NCBI GenBank assembly: GCA_003279585.1
Contig: QCHH01000004.1
Coordinates: forward strand, 1-64,000
Direction of reading: 5' to 3'
DNA from: Prochlorococcus sp. AG-402-A08
Lineage (GTDB): Bacteria; Cyanobacteriota; Cyanobacteriia; PCC-6307; Cyanobiaceae
DNA length: 64,000 nt
Under the pieces are notes generated by a model. That model saw nothing but the letters and a program-made list of their open reading frames with translations. It did no database searches and was not told where the DNA came from. Both the position numbers and the translations under genes were made by a program. Position 1 is the first letter of the stretch; each line of letters begins with the position of its first letter. Positions 1 through 51,177 of this stretch are shown piece by piece.

Positions 1-696
1 GTAAGAGGTCTTGATCCTCCTGGGACACCAGGTTGGACTCTCAATGAAACCACTGACCTATTACTAAAAAAAGAATTTGACGATTGCAGACAAAAGAAGG
101 TTCCACACAGAATATTTGCATCTAATGGACTATCTCATGTTGTTCCATTTGATCATCCTGAAATAGATAACTGGAGAAACTCTCTTCATCGGGGACTAAT
201 GCATCGTTACAAGGATACCGGAATAATTTTGACTGGAGGTGTAGACGATATTTGGCAAGACACTATTACAAGACAACTAATAATTGTGGATTACAAATCA
301 CAAGCAAAAAACGGACGAGTTGATAAGAAAGATTATTTAGAGGATCCTTTTCATGAGGCCTATAAAATTCAAATGGACTTTTATGCTTACTTACTCTCGG
401 GGATGGGTTTTAGTGTTCATCCAATATCTTATTTTCTAGTTTGCAATGCAAAAAGGGATGAAGATGAATTTAATAAGACCATGCGTTTTGATGAATATCT
501 TGTTCCCTACAAATGGAGGAATGATTGGATAGAGAGTCGACTAGATGAAATGGTCACACTAATGAATCAATCAGAGATTCCAGAATCAAATCCTTCATGC
601 AAGAACTGCGCCTATGCAGATCAATATTCGAAAATACTATTTTCAGGAAATTCAAGTAAAAAAGAAATGACACAAGGAACTTTGCCATTATTTTAA
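1..696 (+). CDS. PD-(D/E)XK nuclease superfamily protein (5' truncated by window edge)
   Basis: Frame open from base 1 through ORF 199..696; GGVDDIW...IIVDYKS core and C-terminal Cys resemble Cas4/RecB-like PD-(D/E)XK proteins. Confidence 0.75.
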   Translation, partial: VRGLDPPGTPGWTLNETTDLLLKKEFDDCRQKKVPHRIFASNGLSHVVPFDHPEIDNWRNSLHRGLMHRYKDTGIILTGGVDDIWQDTITRQLIIVDYKSQAKNGRVDKKDYLEDPFHEAYKIQMDFYAYLLSGMGFSVHPISYFLVCNAKRDEDEFNKTMRFDEYLVPYKWRNDWIESRLDEMVTLMNQSEIPESNPSCKNCAYADQYSKILFSGNSSKKEMTQGTLPLF

Positions 697-753
697 GAAC
701 GCTAATAGTTATAAAAATGATTCTGATCAAAAAGCGTCTGAAGGATTAATGGG

Positions 754-1392
754 ATGTGCGGAAGATATCAGCTATTAACAAAATTTATAAATTTACCAGA
801 TCTTTTAAAAAAAGATGTGCCAAGGGGATTGAGTCAAAATTATGAACCACAAATATTAATCAAACCAGGTTCTCCAATTCTTGTTCTTAAGAATGAAGGC
901 AAGACACAAACATCCATAATGCTATGGGGTTTTATATCTGAGTGGAGTAAAGACCCTTTTGACAACACAAGGCCAAAGCCATTTAACGCGAGATCAGAAA
1001 GTGTTGAAGAGAAGAAACTTTTTCGTGCAAGCTGGAGGCATAAGAGATGTTTGATACCAGCCAGTGGTTTTCTAGAAAAAGGTCACCTAATAGGTAGAAA
1101 AGATTCTCAAACTTTCTGGTTAGGAGGACTTTGGAATCGTTGGATGTCTAAAGAAGGATGTGAATTAGAGAGCTGTTGTGTGCTAACGACCGAACCAAAT
1201 GATTTAGTCAAACAATTTCATAACCGTATGCCCGTTATTATTCCAAATGGGCTAGAAGAAGAATGGATCTCTTCAGTTAAAAATTCTCAAGACCTTAAAG
1301 CTTTAAAACCGCTAATGACTAAATGGGACCCAGAAGAATGGACAGCCGAGCCAATAAACAAACCTAATGCCGACCAATTATCCTTCCTATAA
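754..1392 (+). CDS. yedK: SRAP domain protein (YedK/HMCES-like abasic-site DNA-protein crosslinker)
   Basis: N-terminal MCGRY, NARSE, CLIPASGF, and HNRMPV motifs. Confidence 0.93.
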   Translation: MCGRYQLLTKFINLPDLLKKDVPRGLSQNYEPQILIKPGSPILVLKNEGKTQTSIMLWGFISEWSKDPFDNTRPKPFNARSESVEEKKLFRASWRHKRCLIPASGFLEKGHLIGRKDSQTFWLGGLWNRWMSKEGCELESCCVLTTEPNDLVKQFHNRMPVIIPNGLEEEWISSVKNSQDLKALKPLMTKWDPEEWTAEPINKPNADQLSFL

Positions 1393-4364: not shown

Positions 4365-5282
4365 TTGGAAATAATCCTTCTTTTAGCTGAATTAATACCA
4401 TGTCTTTTAATAGGCTATTTACTAGGACGATTTAAAAAAGATTTTTCCCAAACGATATCTCGTCCTTTAATGAACTATGGAATTCCTATCAGCTTGATGG
4501 GGATATTACTTAAGTCTGGCCTTGAATTCCCTTTGATACAATCTGCGGCTTTAGCACTCGTAGCTATTGGCTTTTTAATGACTCTATTAAATTGCCTTCC
4601 TGGTATAAAAGACTTAATCCCAAACAGATCTCTTCAACTAGGTAGTGCATTTGGAAATACTGGGTATTTCGGAATACCAGTTTCACTAGCACTGCTTCCA
4701 AATCATGCCTTGATTTACAGCATAGGTTTTGACCTTGGTGCGACATTGGTAATTTGGAGTATCGGTCCAATACTGCTAACAGATCCTTCAAAAGTTTTAA
4801 GTTCTAATAGATATTGGCAGAATTTCATAAAAGCAATCGTTAGAAGCCCTGCTGTAAAAGGACTGATTGGCGCATTAATTGTTCATTCATCACCATGGAA
4901 TGAACAAATAACAGCCTTACTTTGGATACCTTCAAGGGTTGTAATTGTTTTAGCACTTGTAATCGTTGGAATGCGTCTAAGTTGGTTGAGGAAAGCAAAT
5001 CTCTCAAGAATAAAAATCAAAATAACATCCATAAAAAATGCTTTAATCATGAAACTGGTTGGATTGCCAGTCATTATGTTGATCATTTCCTCAGCGATCA
5101 GATTACCCAACGTCATGCGAGAGGCTTTAGTACTTCAATCAGCTGCTCCAACAGCAATATCTGTCTTACTAATATCCCAAGCAGCGTCAAGAGATGAAGA
5201 TGAAGCCACATCGCTTGTTGTCTTAAGTACGATTATCGCGCTCATATCAATCCCTGCTTGGTTGATGATTTTAAGATTGTAA
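4365..5282 (+). CDS. AEC (auxin efflux carrier) family transporter, TTG start
   Basis: 305 aa, multi-TM, FGNTGYFGIPVSLAL and SAAPTAISVLLISQ motifs. Confidence 0.85.
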   Translation: MEIILLLAELIPCLLIGYLLGRFKKDFSQTISRPLMNYGIPISLMGILLKSGLEFPLIQSAALALVAIGFLMTLLNCLPGIKDLIPNRSLQLGSAFGNTGYFGIPVSLALLPNHALIYSIGFDLGATLVIWSIGPILLTDPSKVLSSNRYWQNFIKAIVRSPAVKGLIGALIVHSSPWNEQITALLWIPSRVVIVLALVIVGMRLSWLRKANLSRIKIKITSIKNALIMKLVGLPVIMLIISSAIRLPNVMREALVLQSAAPTAISVLLISQAASRDEDEATSLVVLSTIIALISIPAWLMILRL

Positions 5283-5345
5283 AAAGTTAACAACTATCGC
5301 CTTTTAACTCAGTTTGCCTAAGTTGTAAGAAATACAATTTTTTTA

Positions 5346-5546
5346 ATGACCTCAGCTACAGCAACAAAAGCGACAGCAAAGAAAACAGCGGCAGTAAAAT
5401 CCTCAGCAGTAAAATCTCAATCAATTTATTCATCAACCCAATCAAGATTTGCCAGTTCAAAGCTAATTCAAAACCTAGGTTCATCTAATGATGGGGTTCA
5501 ATTCGATTTTTCAAGTTCGTTAAGAACTGCATTTGGGAGGGACTAA
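5346..5546 (+). CDS. Ala/Lys/Ser-rich small protein
   Basis: 66 aa ORF MTSATATKATAKKTAAVKSSAVKSQS... Confidence 0.55.
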   Translation: MTSATATKATAKKTAAVKSSAVKSQSIYSSTQSRFASSKLIQNLGSSNDGVQFDFSSSLRTAFGRD

Positions 5547-6769: not shown

Positions 6770-6982
6770 ATGAGCAATAGTGAAAGTCGTGAAGAAAGGA
6801 AAAAACGTTTTAAAAATCTCTCAAGTGCAGAAAGAAAAATGTTGATTAGAAAGAAACTAGAATTGCAAGGTTTAACAGAGGGAAGCGGTGTGAGCGGAAA
6901 GGATCAATCTTCTTACGACAAAGAAGAAATGATAGATTTAATTCTATTAACAAGATGTTTTCAAAAGAATAAATTTCAATAA
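6770..6982 (+). CDS. Hypothetical small charged protein
   Basis: 70 aa ORF. Confidence 0.5.
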   Translation: MSNSESREERKKRFKNLSSAERKMLIRKKLELQGLTEGSGVSGKDQSSYDKEEMIDLILLTRCFQKNKFQ

Positions 6983-7033
6983 CTCATCCAACCAAAATTT
7001 GTTTTACGAAATTAGTCCCTGCAAAATAGGCAT

Positions 7034-7237
7034 ATGAATAAACCTATTAAAAAAAAGAAAATTACCTTTGCAAGGTTTGCTGTTCGTACTCTTGCTATTT
7101 CTGCAAGCACTCTCGCTCTATTTGATTTTCTAAAAGGAGACTATCTAGCTGGAGGGCTTCTAGCACTTGGATGGTTACTTATCGTGATCGGGGAGAAAAG
7201 GATGTTTAATGGGGAAAAGCCAAATGACGAAACCTAA
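7034..7237 (+). CDS. Small membrane protein
   Basis: 67 aa ORF with hydrophobic centre. Confidence 0.5.
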   Translation: MNKPIKKKKITFARFAVRTLAISASTLALFDFLKGDYLAGGLLALGWLLIVIGEKRMFNGEKPNDET

Positions 7238-7726: not shown

Positions 7727-8314
7727 TTAGAGCCAAAACAATAGAAATCCTGCCAAAAGTCCAGACATATGACCTAACAAACTAATTCCAGGTAAGAATG
7801 ACCAAATAATTCCAATACCTGTAAGCACAGAAATAGATTTAAGTAATCTTGGATCTTTCTTTAGGTGACATCCAATGAACAAAAATCTTTTCTTTCCATA
7901 AATTGTAGTCATTAGAATAAACGCGTCGATACCAAATAAAACACCACTAAAGCCAATGGCTAGAGACATAGGATTTCTATAAATTAAAATATCTACGCAC
8001 CAACAAATGAATGCTTGGAGAGGAATTATCAATACAATAAAAGCCAGAAAGAAATAGTCACTTTGAAGGCTTAAAGATTTAAGAAAATATCTAGCTACGA
8101 TGATTCCAGAGATATTTGCCAATAAATGATTAACATCACCATGAAAAAAATGAGATGTAATAATCCTGTATGGCTCATAAAACAAACGTCCAGACCAATA
8201 AGCAATGGAAGCCTTATCAATTATTCCAAAGAAATCTGTTGCAAAGAAGCAAATAGTGCAAGCCAAAAAGGGGACAAAATACTGCCAATCATCTTTTGAA
8301 ATCTTCTCAAGCAT
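7727..8314 (-). CDS. Rhomboid-family intramembrane protease-like protein
   Basis: HFFHGDVNHLLANISG, GFSGVLFG (GxSG Ser), GHMSGLLAGF (catalytic His). Confidence 0.85.
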   Translation of the reverse strand: MLEKISKDDWQYFVPFLACTICFFATDFFGIIDKASIAYWSGRLFYEPYRIITSHFFHGDVNHLLANISGIIVARYFLKSLSLQSDYFFLAFIVLIIPLQAFICWCVDILIYRNPMSLAIGFSGVLFGIDAFILMTTIYGKKRFLFIGCHLKKDPRLLKSISVLTGIGIIWSFLPGISLLGHMSGLLAGFLLFWL

Positions 8315-21445: not shown

Positions 21446-21746
21446 TGCTCTTTCTCGTAGTGCTCAAGACCCCGTTCCATGTCTCGAGTCTTACTGCAGC
21501 TTGAAATTTAGCTGAACGTGTATCAAAAATAACAGAAATTATCTTTAAACGATGTTTGTCATGATACATAAAACAGTGAATTAAGTAGTGTTAACCGAAA
21601 TAGTTACATTTCTTACTAAAAAGCACCCTTAAATCACTAAAAAAGTTAATTATTTATCCTCTTCTTTTTCTTTCTTAAACTATACCAACCTTCCCCTATC
21701 CCCCCTTCTCACAAAAATCATTAAAGCACAAAAAAAGGATCCTAAT

Positions 21747-38024: not shown

Positions 38025-38260
38025 CCATACTCCGAATGTTAATTTAAGTCCCCGTTCCTTGGCTTAAATCGAAATGCGGCTCACTATGTAGCGAGTTGAA
38101 CGTTTTGGTAGCGGTTGCTACAAAAAATATTATGTTAGGTCTCGATGGCACGTGTAGTTCAGCTCGATACAAAACTATCTAGTGGTATATACTCAAATTC
38201 CTAAATCCTTTTTGTAACTACCAAACTGAAGGAGAATTCGGATACTTTTTTTAATAAGCT

Positions 38261-44229: not shown

Positions 44230-45924
44230 ATGAGCAGTACTAAAGCTATGCAGACAACTAGAACTTTCTCTGAGTTTGCAAAACAAGCTGACTACTCATT
44301 AATGGATTCTCTCGAACCTGATCCTCAGGCAACAGATGATGGTGACGACCACCTAACAAGAGAGGTCTTTTCTGGTCACTATGTACCTGTCACTCCAACA
44401 GCAATTCCAAAACCAGAATATGTCGCTCACAGTAAAATATTATTTAACGAGTTAGGCTTGAGTCAGGAACTTGCTCTAGATGAGCTTTTTCGTCGTCTAT
44501 TCTCCGGCGACATAAGTGTTGCGATAACACCGATGCGACCAGTTGGTTGGGCTACCGGTTACGCACTATCTATCTATGGAACTGAATATACTCAGCAGTG
44601 TCCATTTGGGACAGGCAACGGCTATGGAGATGGGAGAGCTATTTCAGTATTTGAAGGTCTCTTTAATGGAAAAAGATGGGAGATGCAACTTAAAGGAGGA
44701 GGACCAACACCATACTGCAGAGGAGCTGATGGACGAGCAGTACTTCGTTCAAGTGTTCGTGAGTTTTTAGCGCAGGAATATATGCAATCACTCGGTGTAC
44801 CAACATCACGATCCCTCACACTATATGTCTCTAAATCTGAAACAGTCCGCAGACCTTGGTATACAAAAGACTCCAATTCTATCGATCCAGACATATTGGT
44901 AGAAACACCAGCTGCAATCTCAACACGCGTCGCACCATCATTTTTACGGGTAGGTCAGATAGAACTCTTTGCACGTCGAGTACGCAACAATGAGCATCAA
45001 GATGCAATGAAAGAGCTCGAGATGATTGTGAAGCACTTAATCGTAAGAAATTACAAAGAGGAAATTGATCCGACCCTTAGCTTTAGCGATCAAGTCGTTG
45101 AGCTCGCAAATTCATTCCGAGAACGACTTACATCATTAGTAGCTAATTGGATGCGGGTTGGCTACTGCCAAGGTAATTTCAACAGTGACAACTGCGCTGC
45201 AGGAGGGTTCACCCTCGATTACGGTCCATTTGGTTTTTGCGAACTCTTCGATCCCAGATTCCAACCCTGGACAGGAGGTGGTGAACATTTTGCATTCTTT
45301 AACCAACAAGTTGCTGCCGAAGCAAATTATCAAATGTTTGGGGGGGCGATTCGACCTCTGCTTACCGGCAACGCACATGCACTGGAAAGGCTAGATAGTA
45401 TCCGCGATGGATTTACTACAGTAATGAATCAGAAAATGGAGAACATGTGGACAAAGAAACTAGGCTTAGTTAACTATGACGCGCCTCTAGTAAATGAAAT
45501 GCTACAGCTTATGGTTCACACAAAGGTCGACTACACAATCTTTTTCCGAAAACTTTCAAGTATCCCAAAAGAACTTAAGGACTTAAAAGATAGTTTCTAT
45601 CTACCAATTTCAAAGGAGATTGAAACAAAATGGATTAGTTGGCTACAAAGATGGCGGGAGCACGTAACTAACAAAGGCGATCAAAATGAAATTTCAGCAA
45701 AAATGAAACACATTAATCCAAAATACACATGGCGGGAATGGCTCATCACACCAGCATACGAAATGGCAGAGAAAGGCGACTATGGTCTCATAATGGAACT
45801 ACAAGCTGTTTTAGACAAACCTTACGAGGAACAATCATTAGAGGTACAGAAAAAATACGACAGACTCAAGCCCAAGAAATTCTTTGGAGCCGGTGGGATT
45901 TCCCATTACAGCTGTTCCTCATGA
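44230..45924 (+). CDS. selO: SelO/YdiU/UPF0061 family protein adenylyltransferase
   Basis: [68 protein letters not shown]-terminal SCSS. Confidence 0.95.
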
Positions 45925-46380: not shown

Positions 46381-46519
46381 GTATAACTTCAATAAAATAA
46401 ATCCTCTAAACCAAGAAGATAGGGAGTTACTTTCTGATTTAAAAACTACCTTTGACATTGGGACTCAAACTATCATTGGACAAGATGAAGATGAGATAGT
46501 TGATGATCTCATTGACTAA
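46379..46519 (+). CDS. Acidic microprotein
   Basis: MYNFNKINPLNQEDRELLSDLKTTFDIGTQTIIGQDEDEIVDDLID. Confidence 0.45.
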   Translation: MYNFNKINPLNQEDRELLSDLKTTFDIGTQTIIGQDEDEIVDDLID

Positions 46520-46661
46520 ATGACTTAATATAATGAAGATCTATAAATAGAATTAATTTCAATATAAAATTGTTGGATCTGGTAATTTTATTTTTTAATA
46601 CGATCGAATGTTGGAACTTATTAAAACTATTAAAACTAAAGAAAGTTAAAAAAGAAAAATA

Positions 46662-46907
46662 TCAACTATTAATTTTTTGCCAAATAATTTCAGCATCTCT
46701 AAAAAGGTAAATAGCTTCTTTCCTGCCAACGGCTCTTTCAGCATCATTCATTAACTTAATATACCTCTCTCTCAAAAGCTGCTTTTCCATGACAACTTTG
46801 GTAAACATATGAAGTTTTTCATGTCGATCTTCAACTTTGCTTTTGGCTACATTCTTTGTGAAGCCATTCGGGTATGTAGCTTTTACCCGAACGTTGTGCC
46901 TACTCAT
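46662..46907 (-). CDS. RYxxLMxDA-family small protein
   Basis: RERYIKLMNDAERAVGRKEAIYLFRDAEIIWQKI. Confidence 0.65.
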   Translation of the reverse strand: MSRHNVRVKATYPNGFTKNVAKSKVEDRHEKLHMFTKVVMEKQLLRERYIKLMNDAERAVGRKEAIYLFRDAEIIWQKINS

Positions 46908-47135
46908 TTACTCAAATCTTGGTTTCTGATTTATCACTTGTACATTCTGAAAAGGGAACTCATCAAACGCGTGTAGGGTTAACCTCCAATTTTTATTAAA
47001 GGAGGAGGTTTTACCAACTTCGATTCCATAGTCTCTCGCAAGTTCAATTAACTCTTGCATTGACAAGTCAACTAGATAACTTCGAATACATTGATAAGCA
47101 TTAAAGCTCTCAATACTTTTTCTCTCATTGAACAT
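46908..47135 (-). CDS. Hypothetical protein
   Basis: 75 aa ORF; stop abuts the 46662..46907 start. Confidence 0.55.
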   Translation of the reverse strand: MFNERKSIESFNAYQCIRSYLVDLSMQELIELARDYGIEVGKTSSFNKNWRLTLHAFDEFPFQNVQVINQKPRFE

Positions 47136-47322
47136 TGCACGAGAGATTCTTAGAGCTAAGGCTTCTTTAGTGAAGAGTGCACAAAAACAACTAATTAATA
47201 CTATTCAACTTCTGGATATGTTTGTGTACAAATCATCTTAAGAAAACAAAAAAAAGATCAATCTAGTTGCACTCAAGGTCACACTCTGCAAATTGACCTT
47301 TTAATATTTAAATAAAATAACT

Positions 47323-47535
47323 ATGACAGAAGTAAAGAAAAACAAAAAACTTGGATTTATCCCAAAAACGTCAAAGACTTCAGAGAAAAAAGAGGTGATT
47401 AAAGAGCCCAAAGGAAGACTTATTTCCTGGTCTCCCTGGCCTCCTGCTAATTTCAAAACTCGTTACCCAGCATTCCCTTTAGTTACGACTGTTTTGATTT
47501 TAATAATTATACGCTGGCTAACCTTGGCTAATTAG
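47323..47535 (+). CDS. Small membrane protein
   Basis: RYPAFPLVTTVLILIIIRW. Confidence 0.55.
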   Translation: MTEVKKNKKLGFIPKTSKTSEKKEVIKEPKGRLISWSPWPPANFKTRYPAFPLVTTVLILIIIRWLTLAN

Positions 47536-47585
47536 CTTAATTAAGTACTTGTAAATGTGAAATGTTATATGAAGAAAGTTGTTTT

Positions 47586-47768
47586 TCAAAAATGAAAATA
47601 GGGTATTTCTTTTGGGGGGGCTAGACGCGTAGAACAGATACCAAATTGCAAGCACTCAATCACATCATCATCATATTTTGGCTTGTAATTAGAAAACAAT
47701 TCAGACATTTCATTTTCTTGAATGGAAACCCCAGAAAAATTTCGAAATAATTGCTTTGAGAATGGCAT
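47586..47768 (-). CDS. ECLQFGICS-family microprotein (copy 1; ORF extends to 47786)
   Basis: ...DDDVIECLQFGICSTRLAPPKEIPYFHF. Confidence 0.65.
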   Translation of the reverse strand: MPFSKQLFRNFSGVSIQENEMSELFSNYKPKYDDDVIECLQFGICSTRLAPPKEIPYFHF

Positions 47769-47825
47769 GATTAGACATCTAAACAACCTGCTTAATTTCT
47801 ACTCATATTGATTAAAGAAATCTAT

Positions 47826-47852
47826 AGGGAGGAACACTCAAGTATTTATACA
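47826..47852 (-). promoter_or_regulatory. Shared upstream element of ECLQFGICS gene 1
   Basis: TATAAATACTTGAGTGTTCCTCCCTATAGA on minus strand. Confidence 0.5.
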
Positions 47853-47991
47853 GTCACGGAAAACATATTCAATACACAGAGACAATTGTCGAAGGATTAG
47901 CTAGTGCTTTCCTTGAAGAGATTGATTTAATAATAGGAGGCAACTTTTTCTCAATGCTTTACTTTGGATTATCTCGATAATAAAAGTTCCA

Positions 47992-48243
47992 TTATTTTGA
48001 TTTTTGTATTTGACTAAAGCCATCCGGAGACTGAAGATAAGAAGTTTGGCCTAAATAGGGATCGTCTCCAAGAAGATCATTCATTTGCGTTTCTGTGATT
48101 TGCCTAGGAGCTTGAACGATTTCAGCAGGGTTTGACTCTACAAGCGATGAATCTATTTCATCTGCATTAAGAGCCCCAGGACAAGAAATCAAAAGAACTC
48201 CAAGAAAAAAAGAAAAGATTCGAATTAGCAATGATTCACTCAT
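47992..48243 (-). CDS. Secreted hypothetical protein
   Basis: Signal peptide MSESLLIRIFSFFLGVLLISCPGALNADE. Confidence 0.6.
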   Translation of the reverse strand: MSESLLIRIFSFFLGVLLISCPGALNADEIDSSLVESNPAEIVQAPRQITETQMNDLLGDDPYLGQTSYLQSPDGFSQIQKSK

Positions 48244-48254
48244 TTTCTTAAAAA

Positions 48255-48410
48255 TTACCTATCAGAAGAATCGGAACTATCAACTTGCTCAACCGTCTCA
48301 TCTTGACTTGCTTTTTTCTTGTTAGATGAAGAGCATCCACCTTCACCCCAAGCCAAAACAGGAGCTGTCGTAAAATAAAGAGCAAATACTAAAGGTAGAA
48401 TTTTATTCAT
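48255..48410 (-). CDS. Secreted Cys/Ser-rich microprotein
   Basis: MNKILPLVFALYFTTAPVLAWGEGGCSSSNKKKASQDETVEQVDSSDSSDR. Confidence 0.5.
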   Translation of the reverse strand: MNKILPLVFALYFTTAPVLAWGEGGCSSSNKKKASQDETVEQVDSSDSSDR

Positions 48411-48468
48411 AAGAAAAATTAGAAGCAAAGCAATATTAGAGCCTTTTAAGGAAGTTCGTTTAACCGAC

Positions 48469-48933
48469 TTAATTCATGTCCATTCCTATTTCCATTTCAT
48501 TCATAGAAACCTCACTCTGATCAAGATCTAATGGTCCCACACTAATTTCAGGCAAATTTTCTTCACTTACTTCAGGGAAGGATGGTTCAATAACTATCCC
48601 GAGAGGATTATCACCATTGTCTTCTAGAATTGACGGCTCATCTAAAAGAGACTTGTCTTCTTCGTCTGTCAGCAATTCTGATTCTGTTAAAAGATTATTA
48701 TCTTCACTAGCTACTCTTATACTTTTATCCTTTATTAGTAATTTCGAAAGATCGACAACGTCTATGATTACTGACTTCTGACTTGTATACATATCTTGTA
48801 TTACATTAATTATTTCACCAGATTTTGTGGGTTGGGAAATAAAAGCGAAACAAGTCCAGCCAGCCAGAATAATTGAGATTAAGACAATAGAAATAAAAGC
48901 AGAAAACATTGCTCTTATTATTGTTTTGATCAT
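48469..48933 (-). CDS. Membrane-anchored acidic protein
   Basis: N-terminal TM then E/D/S-rich region, 154 aa. Confidence 0.65.
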   Translation of the reverse strand: MIKTIIRAMFSAFISIVLISIILAGWTCFAFISQPTKSGEIINVIQDMYTSQKSVIIDVVDLSKLLIKDKSIRVASEDNNLLTESELLTDEEDKSLLDEPSILEDNGDNPLGIVIEPSFPEVSEENLPEISVGPLDLDQSEVSMNEMEIGMDMN

Positions 48934-49008
48934 TCGGTAACATTAGATATTGTTAAATCTAGGCAAATCATTTGATACTTAAAACTGACTCTTCACACCC
49001 TGTAAAGG

Positions 49009-49040
49009 CGTATAAATACTTTGGGGTTTACTCTCTAGGT
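49009..49040 (+). promoter_or_regulatory. Shared upstream element of ECLQFGICS gene 2
   Basis: CGTATAAATACTTTGGGGTTTACTCTCTAGG. Confidence 0.5.
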
Positions 49041-49093
49041 TTTTGCTGCCCGATTAGGTTAGAAATGTTTAAGGATATTTAGGGAGCTTAATT

Positions 49094-49261
49094 ATGTTTT
49101 TAAATCCATTCAAACTTTTAATTCACAATATTCGAGCATTATTACCTACTAATAATCAAACAGAAAAGCAACAAAAAGATGAGGAACAGGAATGCTTACA
49201 GTTTGGGATATGTAGTATCCAAGCTCAATCACCTAGACCAGAAGAGTTGTATTTTGGATGA
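49094..49261 (+). CDS. ECLQFGICS-family microprotein (copy 2)
   Basis: MFLNPFKLLIHNIRALLPTNNQTEKQQKDEEQECLQFGICSIQAQSPRPEELYFG (not in ORF track). Confidence 0.65.
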   Translation: MFLNPFKLLIHNIRALLPTNNQTEKQQKDEEQECLQFGICSIQAQSPRPEELYFG

Positions 49262-49275
49262 AAATAAATACAGAA

Positions 49276-49416
49276 CTATGCCACTTCAGGAATATTTTCA
49301 ATAAATTCATCTAATTCTTGAAATTTTCGTTGCAAATAAATGATCTTTTTGGTTTCCGTCATTTCTTCAGAATAAAATTTTACTGGCAAATGAGAAAGCA
49401 GGTTATCACCACTCAT
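49276..49416 (-). CDS. MSGDNLL-family microprotein
   Basis: MSGDNLLSHLPVKFYSEEMTETKKIIYLQRKFQELDEFIENIPEVA. Confidence 0.55.
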   Translation of the reverse strand: MSGDNLLSHLPVKFYSEEMTETKKIIYLQRKFQELDEFIENIPEVA

Positions 49417-49585
49417 CAATCAAGTTCCACTTAATTTTCAATCTATTTAACCTAATAATCTAAAAAAGCCAATCTCTACAACTATTAAAATGTTGTATGC
49501 CTCACTTAAAATCCTCCCGGAATTTAAATCGAAATAAGTTATTCAAAATGTACAGATCTTGAGAGACTAACTATTGACTATTGAA

Positions 49586-49617
49586 AGGAATAAATACTTG
49601 AGTGTTTATTCTCTATG
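49586..49617 (+). promoter_or_regulatory. Shared upstream element of ECLQFGICS gene 3
   Basis: GGAATAAATACTTGAGTGTTTATTCTCTATG. Confidence 0.5.
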
Positions 49618-49667
49618 TATCATTCACCCCATAGGAGTAGAAATAAATTGTGGATCTTTGACCTCCT

Positions 49668-49880
49668 ATGTCCTTCGGAAATCGCTTTGCTCAATTGACT
49701 ACAGAGGCGGCAGAAAATGCAGCTCGACTTGTTCTTAGTCAACTATCTGAAAGAATAAGTTTTTCAAAGCATCCATCAAACAATGATGAAGAAATGGAGT
49801 GTTTGCAATTTGGCATCTGTTCTTATCAAACTCAACCACAAAGAGTAAATGTCTATGGTTTCTCAAATGAAATACATTGA
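49668..49880 (+). CDS. ECLQFGICS-family microprotein (copy 3)
   Basis: ...NNDEEMECLQFGICSYQTQPQRVNVYGFSNEIH. Confidence 0.7.
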   Translation: MSFGNRFAQLTTEAAENAARLVLSQLSERISFSKHPSNNDEEMECLQFGICSYQTQPQRVNVYGFSNEIH

Positions 49881-49996
49881 ACTAATTCTAATATTTTCGT
49901 CATTATCATTGACGTTTTTAGGTTTCTCTTTTCTCGCTATTTAAGAAAGAGTAAACGTTATAAAAATATTAGAATTGCTTTTTATTGCTGCATAAA

Positions 49997-50329
49997 TCAT
50001 TCATTATCAGAGTCCTCCAAAAGATCAGAATATTCCGATAACTTTACTATCGGCAACTCAGATGCGCTATTAGTTGATCTCACTAACAAAGCAGTTAATT
50101 CTGCTGTCCTTTTGTTACTAACAACATTACTACCATGAGCTGAAACTGCTGCTCCAGCGACAAGCGCAGAGATTGGCTTCCACCAATGTAAAGATTTTAA
50201 ATCGTTCTTCTGAACCTCGGCCAGGAAAAAACCTACCCCAAACAAAATACCAAATACAGCTCCTGACCATTGGCATATTTCGGCGGAAATAGATGTACTT
50301 TTTTCGGCAGCATTAATTTGGTCTTCCAT
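49997..50329 (-). CDS. Membrane protein
   Basis: 110 aa with two TM segments; C-terminus EYSDLLEDSDNE. Confidence 0.6.
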   Translation of the reverse strand: MEDQINAAEKSTSISAEICQWSGAVFGILFGVGFFLAEVQKNDLKSLHWWKPISALVAGAAVSAHGSNVVSNKRTAELTALLVRSTNSASELPIVKLSEYSDLLEDSDNE

Positions 50330-50532
50330 CAGGTAAAAATCGAAAGCTAAATTTGTGATTTCCTAATCTATATGAAAGCACTTTTCACATCTAATGAACA
50401 TGAGTAATTAATCCAATACAAGTTAGCTGTATAAAATAAGGTTAAATAATGTCTAATAAAAAACAAGCAAAGATATTCCTAAAAAAGAAAATGATAATGA
50501 AAAAAATATCAAAAGTAGTTCAGTAGTTTTCA

Positions 50533-50661
50533 TTACCACTCAGAATCTTCCAAAAGATTTGAATATAGTTCATAGTTAAAGAAAATATCTTCTTCCAAAA
50601 CTTCTTCCAGATCAACTCTTTTAAAGTAGGTCATGTCCATTAAAACATTTTTTACAATCAT
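50533..50661 (-). CDS. Acidic microprotein
   Basis: MIVKNVLMDMTYFKRVDLEEVLEEDIFFNYELYSNLLEDSEW. Confidence 0.4.
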   Translation of the reverse strand: MIVKNVLMDMTYFKRVDLEEVLEEDIFFNYELYSNLLEDSEW

Positions 50662-50853
50662 CTAGTAAAAGAAACAAAAGCGTGAGTGAGTGGTATTCGG
50701 TTTACATGGTTCGGTTAAATTTACTCATTGCTCTACTACATTCGACTTCAGCTAAGTTAAGGAAATAGATATGATGAAAATAATTTGCTTATCAACAGCA
50801 TTATGATCGAGTAACATTTATACTTTAAAAAAATTTGTTGTAATAATTTTTTC

Positions 50854-51177
50854 TTGTTAATTAATGCAAACTTAATTAATACATTTGTAGTTTCCCGATC
50901 GAGAAGAACATATAAAGGGGTTGACGTTTTTGCTCAATATTTTGCAAGTGCTTGCGAATAAGACAAGTTTGAAGGTTTCGAGGTCATTAAAAGAATTATT
51001 AATCCTGAAGGAGCCAATATATGGAGGGTTTTGAAAGCATACGATCAAAAGGTAGTTGGGAAATTGTTTCAGCTTTGATGTAAAGATTTTGGAAATAATG
51101 CTGAGGTCATTCCTGTTCTTACCGCTGGAGAATATCTTGCTGTTCATAAAGAGTTGGAACAGCAATCAAAGCTTTAA
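50854..51177 (+). pseudogene. Pseudogene of an approximately 107-aa protein with two in-frame stops
   Basis: ...TYKGVDVFAQYFASACE*DKFEGFEVIKRIINPEGANIWRVLKAYDQKVVGKLFQL*CKDFGNNAEVIPVLTAGEYLAVHKELEQQSKL*. Confidence 0.65.

Follow-up and report, generated by a model that had tools for sequence, protein, structure and literature searches.

Prochlorococcus, the most abundant photosynthetic microbe of the ocean, has a very small genome, in which few regulatory proteins are encoded. Among described systems, the small proteins presented here recall CP12, which is small and disordered and carries a Cys-pair loop at its C-terminus. CP12 displays a CX7-8C spacing and ends in R/K-V-Y-E/D-D, in contrast to the CX5C box of the present proteins, which lack an RVYED-type end. 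Given the spacing of five residues and the lack of a Pfam match for the three proteins of the locus and for 20 members, membership in CP12 was rejected.

Prochlorosins (Nif11-type lanthipeptides) are also encoded by multiple small Cys-containing ORFs in Prochlorococcus. The present proteins display the reverse pattern, a conserved Cys box behind a variable N-terminus; they had no Pfam or NCBIfam match to this group, and no GG preceded the Cys box in the three proteins of the locus. IF7/IF17, small inhibitors controlling cyanobacterial glutamine synthetase (PMC6316151), and DUF4278 proteins are likewise small cyanobacterial proteins and candidate protein-protein regulators. Membership in either was discarded, as neither a Pfam or NCBIfam domain nor a glutamine riboswitch was found.

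Short peptides are further encoded downstream of glutamine-II riboswitches, Yfr6 included (PMC2864571, PMC1242208, PMC6316151). These RF01704-associated genes resemble the present ones in being short conserved ORFs, in occurring several times per picocyanobacterial genome and in having a conserved 5' leader. Identity was nevertheless rejected. No RF01704 aptamer was detected at 46500-51000 (searched up to E 1) or at 48960-49110 (up to E 10), while the whole-genome search returned eight matches elsewhere, seven of them over the cut-off; moreover, the related gene of strain MED4 is not at the yfr6 locus (627729-627972; PMC1242208). Two of the RF01704 aptamers were located in the analysed stretch, at 38043-38105(-) with 65.9 bits and at 21463-21521(-) with 50.7 bits.

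Members, types and distribution

The window, i.e. the whole stretch of 64,000 nt analysed here, belongs to the AG-402-A08 genome, a Prochlorococcus of a low-light-like clade. The three ORFs proposed by the first-pass annotation were recovered at the same positions and on the same strands, encoding 60, 55 and 70 aa (Table 1), and the identical nonapeptide ECLQFGICS was found in all three by motif DNA and translation. The corresponding 24-nt motif DNA (47634-47657(-), 49190-49213(+) and 49797-49820(+)) displayed three distinct synonymous spellings, and a reversed-pattern control gave 0 matches. Since differing synonymous codons encode the motif, its identity lies at the protein level and does not reflect a DNA repeat; a chance origin is excluded by its presence in 148 distinct ORFs from many genomes. 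The three copies sit within 2.3 kb. A profile search uncovered a fourth, diverged copy with the box ECLQFGNCS on another contig of the same genome (G000:C43:1272-1457(+)). The initial set of three copies had thus been incomplete, and the shared upstream element and the N-terminal homology described below had also been missed.

Table 1. Family members, motif codons and upstream elements (R1) in the window
Feature	Position	Strand	Remarks
Family member type A (MPFSKQLFRNFSG...DDDVIECLQFGICSTRLAPPKEIPYFHF)	47586..47768	(-)	60 aa; profile E 8.4e-24
Motif codons ECLQFGICS, type A	47631..47657	(-)	sequence pattern and translation
R1 of type A	47795..47852	(-)	~27 nt before ATG; E 8.9e-15 (site in model)
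Family member type B (MFLNPFKLLIHNI...DEEQECLQFGICSIQAQSPRPEELYFG)	49094..49261	(+)	55 aa; profile E 3.4e-20
Motif codons ECLQFGICS, type B	49190..49216	(+)	sequence pattern and translation
R1 of type B	49009..49067	(+)	E 1.3e-13 (site in model)
Family member type C (MSFGNRFAQLTTEAAENAARLVL...DEEMECLQFGICSYQTQPQRVNVYGFSNEIH)	49668..49880	(+)	70 aa; profile E 4.1e-29
Motif codons ECLQFGICS, type C	49797..49823	(+)	sequence pattern and translation
R1 of type C	49588..49644	(+)	E 7.0e-15 (site in model)

These genes form a Prochlorococcus-specific paralogous family of proteins of ~50-70 aa, of which four kinds occur in the AG-402-A08 genome. Members consist of an acidic linker and a near-invariant box between two variable ends, the N-terminus and the tail. 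Types A (MPFSKQLF...), B (MSFNPFK...), C (MSYGNRFAQL...) and D (MSCGNPFKHAIEDVK...) were defined in the genus of the window, whereas type E (MSLSSEAV...) was encountered in other Prochlorococcus genera; the high-light type reads MSCGNPYKH...ECMQFGIC...IPYFHY. Apart from the box and the upstream element, paralogues were only about 35-50% alike. Their N-termini, first described as different, are indeed diverged yet still related, aligning together with high-light relatives as M-S-x-G-N-P-x-K. The acidic stretch reported initially was present as well, but the tail tyrosine reported along with it was not general: the tails of type C orthologues mostly end in ...QPQRVNF and have no Tyr there.

In the genus of the window, whose named genomes are the single-cell genomes Prochlorococcus sp. 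AG-402- and AG-363-, the family was found in nearly all genomes with several kinds each, and 31 out of 41 carried the motif pattern. At the level of the taxonomic family, 95 out of 400 genomes matched the profile at E <= 0.01. All except one fell into five genera, the named members of which fit Prochlorococcus; the exception was marginal (E 0.007, and 0.09 with a better profile). Profile searches of the taxonomic family and of the phylum revealed no convincing member in Synechococcus or other cyanobacteria, the sole phylum-wide match outside the taxonomic family (E 0.008) being interrupted by in-frame stops. The expectation of the first-pass annotation that the motif is conserved in other strains was thus borne out by profile matches in further strains and genera. 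In the high-light genus, matches were obtained in 40 of the 60 genomes of at least 95% completeness, some of them with in-frame stops, which designates the gene as accessory there; its absence from the other 20, together with these stops, argues that its function is dispensable in this genus. A single profile match (657929-658108) was found in the 1,657,990-bp genome, which we take to be that of MED4; the family gene itself spans 657930-658112.

Viral contigs yielded no relatives by profile search, and motif-pattern matches in three of them were dismissed as chance occurrences in unrelated reading frames. Phage records gave none with a 24-aa query whose first residue was C for D, at a slight loss of sensitivity. 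No family was found for the members in Pfam (three window proteins, and 20 members), NCBIfam, PHROGs or PDB, and neither the motif string nor guessed MED4 locus tags occurred in any open paper found. As supposed at the outset, the family appears to be undescribed in the searched libraries and open papers, single members presumably being annotated as hypothetical proteins in some genomes. It provides a defined motif, a set of paralogue types and a profile with which these often-overlooked ORFs can be annotated.

Constraint on the box and its possible function

Across 148 distinct ORFs, collected by profile and with no filter on the motif, the core reads D-x3-E-C-[LM]-Q-[FY]-G-[INF]-C; the two Cys, the Glu and the Gly are each conserved at ~99% (D 143/148, E 147/148, first C 148/148, Q 144/148, F 144/148, G 145/147, I 132/147, second C 146/147). 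The first Cys was never replaced and the second only once, by Ser, in a short truncated ORF; the other box positions displayed L/M, Q/T, F/Y and I/N/F exchanges. ECLQFGICS was initially regarded as invariant. The box is strongly conserved, but the residue following the second Cys varies (S/D/A/T/G), and the fourth copy deviates within the box itself.

Values of dN/dS (Nei-Gojobori) for the whole gene, motif, N-terminal part and tail were 0.23, 0.014, 0.30 and 0.25 for type A; 0.36, 0.135, 0.44 and 0.26 for type B; 0.21, 0.011, 0.22 and 0.55 for type C; 0.09, 0.054, 0.10 and 0.06 for type D; and 0.27, 0.032, 0.29 and 0.41 for type E. The motif thus ranged from 0.011 to 0.135 against 0.06 to 0.55 for the flanks, the motif dN being slightly low by construction, as these genes were gathered by the motif-core pattern; the profile set of 148 ORFs indicated that such gathering loses few members. 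Among high-light copies, synonymous substitution within the motif had reached saturation, whereas pN was 0.04. Synonymous sites change freely while nonsynonymous sites do not, and constraint therefore acts on the protein. Judging from these substitutions, the genes are translated proteins under purifying selection with the box as their most constrained part, in keeping with the early proposal that the motif itself is functional. Membership in a known family, lack of conservation and lack of purifying selection had been named as possible counter-evidence; all three were looked for and none was encountered.

AlphaFold models of two members were of low confidence (mean pLDDT 58 and 62). Type C displayed one weakly amphipathic N-terminal helix and no reliable prediction for the box, and a fold search of this low-confidence model against PDB gave no match. 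Inspection of member sequences showed neither a transmembrane-like nor a signal-peptide-like hydrophobic segment. The reading tentatively preferred here, possible rather than probable, is that of cytoplasmic, mostly disordered docking or regulatory proteins, the CX5C box of which acts as a thiol switch and the paralogues of which are co-controlled. The box would be both the recognition and the switching part: upon oxidation, or in a thioredoxin-type reaction, the two thiols may close a short loop by a disulfide, which would alter binding to one conserved partner. The diverged N-termini may set localisation or timing, while the shared upstream element R1 (Table 1) would place all paralogues under one signal, probably related to stress, and so permit their joint expression. 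The invariant Cys pair to be expected of a thiol switch, understood here as a kind of regulator and not as a homology family, was found (148/148 and 146/147). Disulfide formation, metal binding or modification, as suggested at the outset, would each be a candidate role of this pair. A family that is multicopy and near-universal in the low-light genus, with a near-invariant box and shared control, is a candidate for missing post-translational regulation.

Two other readings are both unlikely, to a similar degree. In the first, the box and acidic residues, joined in some types by a tail His, would bind metal (Cu, Zn or Fe-S related) at a small site, making the proteins metal buffers or chaperones. 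The two invariant Cys, the near-invariant Glu and Asp, the five Cys of type D and the many tails ending in YFHF or FFHY are consistent with such a site, but all members share no more than two Cys ligands, a tail His is lacking in type B, type C orthologues and type D, and no known metal-binding profile matched. In the second, the box would be a short linear motif by which the protein, as an adaptor or inhibitor, docks to a single enzyme, its residues mattering for shape and not for thiol chemistry. A single conserved box amid diverged flanks, in proteins with mostly low-confidence prediction and probable disorder, would suit this role, for which the several small inhibitor proteins of cyanobacteria, IF7/IF17 among them, offer a precedent. 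Against it, the Cys are the strictest of the box residues and are kept while other positions exchange, which favours a role of the thiol groups, conceivably in metal binding, over a motif that acts by shape alone.

That the proteins are processed into a secreted or modified peptide, i.e. a RiPP or a signalling peptide, with the box as core seems improbable. Small ORFs present in several copies, the C-terminal part of which is conserved and contains Cys, would be in keeping with it, as would the production of lanthipeptides by picocyanobacteria (PMC10783134); yet the invariant 'core' behind a variable 'leader' reverses the lanthipeptide pattern, no Nif11 or other leader match and no GG site were found, and the ten neighbours scanned included no modifying enzyme. 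Still more remote is a toxin-antitoxin or phage-response peptide. The MED4 family gene lies ~3.6 kb from a gene placed by yfr3 coordinates as PMM0686, whose transcript is reported to be the host mRNA most strongly induced by phage (PMC2518516), and presence in high-light strains is patchy; however, viral contigs and phage genomes lacked relatives, the window yielded neither antitoxin partner nor antisense RNA, and the maintenance of several kinds in nearly every genome of one genus suggests a role in acclimation. Finally, the proximity of the three copies might suggest that the motif arose as a DNA repeat or by recombination and has no significance as coding sequence; this is refuted by the differing synonymous codons and by divergence at synonymous but not at nonsynonymous sites.

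Neighbouring genes and upstream element R1

Gene order at the locus (selO - small ORFs - A - three (-) ORFs - B - C - 110-aa ORF) was kept within the low-light genus. The SelO gene adjoining the cluster (protein adenylyltransferase, Pfam E 2e-67) occupies 44230-45924(+) of the window. Synteny extends to a second Prochlorococcus genus (L067), where selO was found near the MSLSSEAV type; a functional link between SelO and the family was considered on this ground and set aside.

In the high-light genus, the family gene adjoins an ORF for a 53-aa single-helix membrane peptide with a CX8C tail (MTNLGLELLILTVLLIYFGVFMTQN...), located at 7731-7892(+) of L154 (MED4) and at high-light loci L213-L239. 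Most of the ~30 loci displayed one of two arrangements, the ORF either following ~40 nt downstream in the same orientation or lying divergently at ~0.5 kb. It was present in 35 of the 40 high-light genomes with the family and in four of the 20 without (Fisher p 4e-7, phylogeny being ignored). It was absent from the low-light genomes tested and can therefore not be a universal partner. hli genes are located beside the MED4 copy and a few other family loci, a weak association since such genes are numerous. Both neighbours could reflect island hitchhiking. Near one high-light family gene, two small ORFs of L156, at 5189-5374(+) and 6924-7088(+), display CP12-like ends (ECELNPSNPHCLVYED, ECMAHPANSHCKIYCD) and had no Pfam match.

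Despite protein divergence, copies of the window's lineage share an element of ~60 nt upstream of the ATG, with the consensus GTATAAATACTTgAGTGTTtAcTCTCTAg - ~15 nt - GGAGTAGAaAT. This element, R1, was modelled from sequence only and searched in eight genomes of the window's genus; sites at family genes match the model partly by construction. RNAalifold revealed no consensus pair, and one family leader folded alone was no stabler than shuffles (z +1.27), so that a structured RNA leader was dropped and R1 was taken for a sequence element of a promoter or leader. It is putatively a control element (promoter, operator or leader) common to the copies of this lineage.

Beyond family genes, convincing R1 sites (E 4e-8 to 4e-4) were located next to type D copies but on the other strand, where they precede an unrelated 56-aa ORF (MTRKRDKIWTAIIATKQWF...). 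Its gene, which is conserved, was found at 639-869(-) of L145 (G000:C43), with MTRKRD as the probable start, and also in L203, L204, L210 and L211; divergent from type D, it displays its own R1-like element, followed by a long leader that contains a AAAGGGGGC...GCCCCCTT hairpin ahead of the ATG. Weaker partial sites (E 0.005-0.05) open a stretch that occurs in several copies, appears to be non-coding and contains a GGGGGC...GCCCCC hairpin. This stretch of ~180 nt (AGGTGTTTNCTCTCATGTTCC...TTAGAAATGGG...AGCACTTG...GGGGGCAACCAAAATCTTGCCCCC) was encountered in L194, L195, L196, L202, L203, L205 and L207; it matched no Rfam family and is a candidate small RNA.

It is conceivable, at rather low probability, that the family forms a network, restricted to Prochlorococcus, of small thiol-switch proteins that are under common control and share one invariant E-C-L-Q-F-G-I-C effector box, with the common element also driving another peptide and possibly the multicopy small RNA. 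Such a network would provide this most abundant phototroph with a shared output for stress or redox signals. Cyano-1 RNA (RF01701) scored above its gathering threshold at four sites, 4729-4793(-) of L203, 2860-2924(-) of L211, 2200-2264(-) of L196 and 77-141(+) of L202, all within ~2 kb of R1-type elements.
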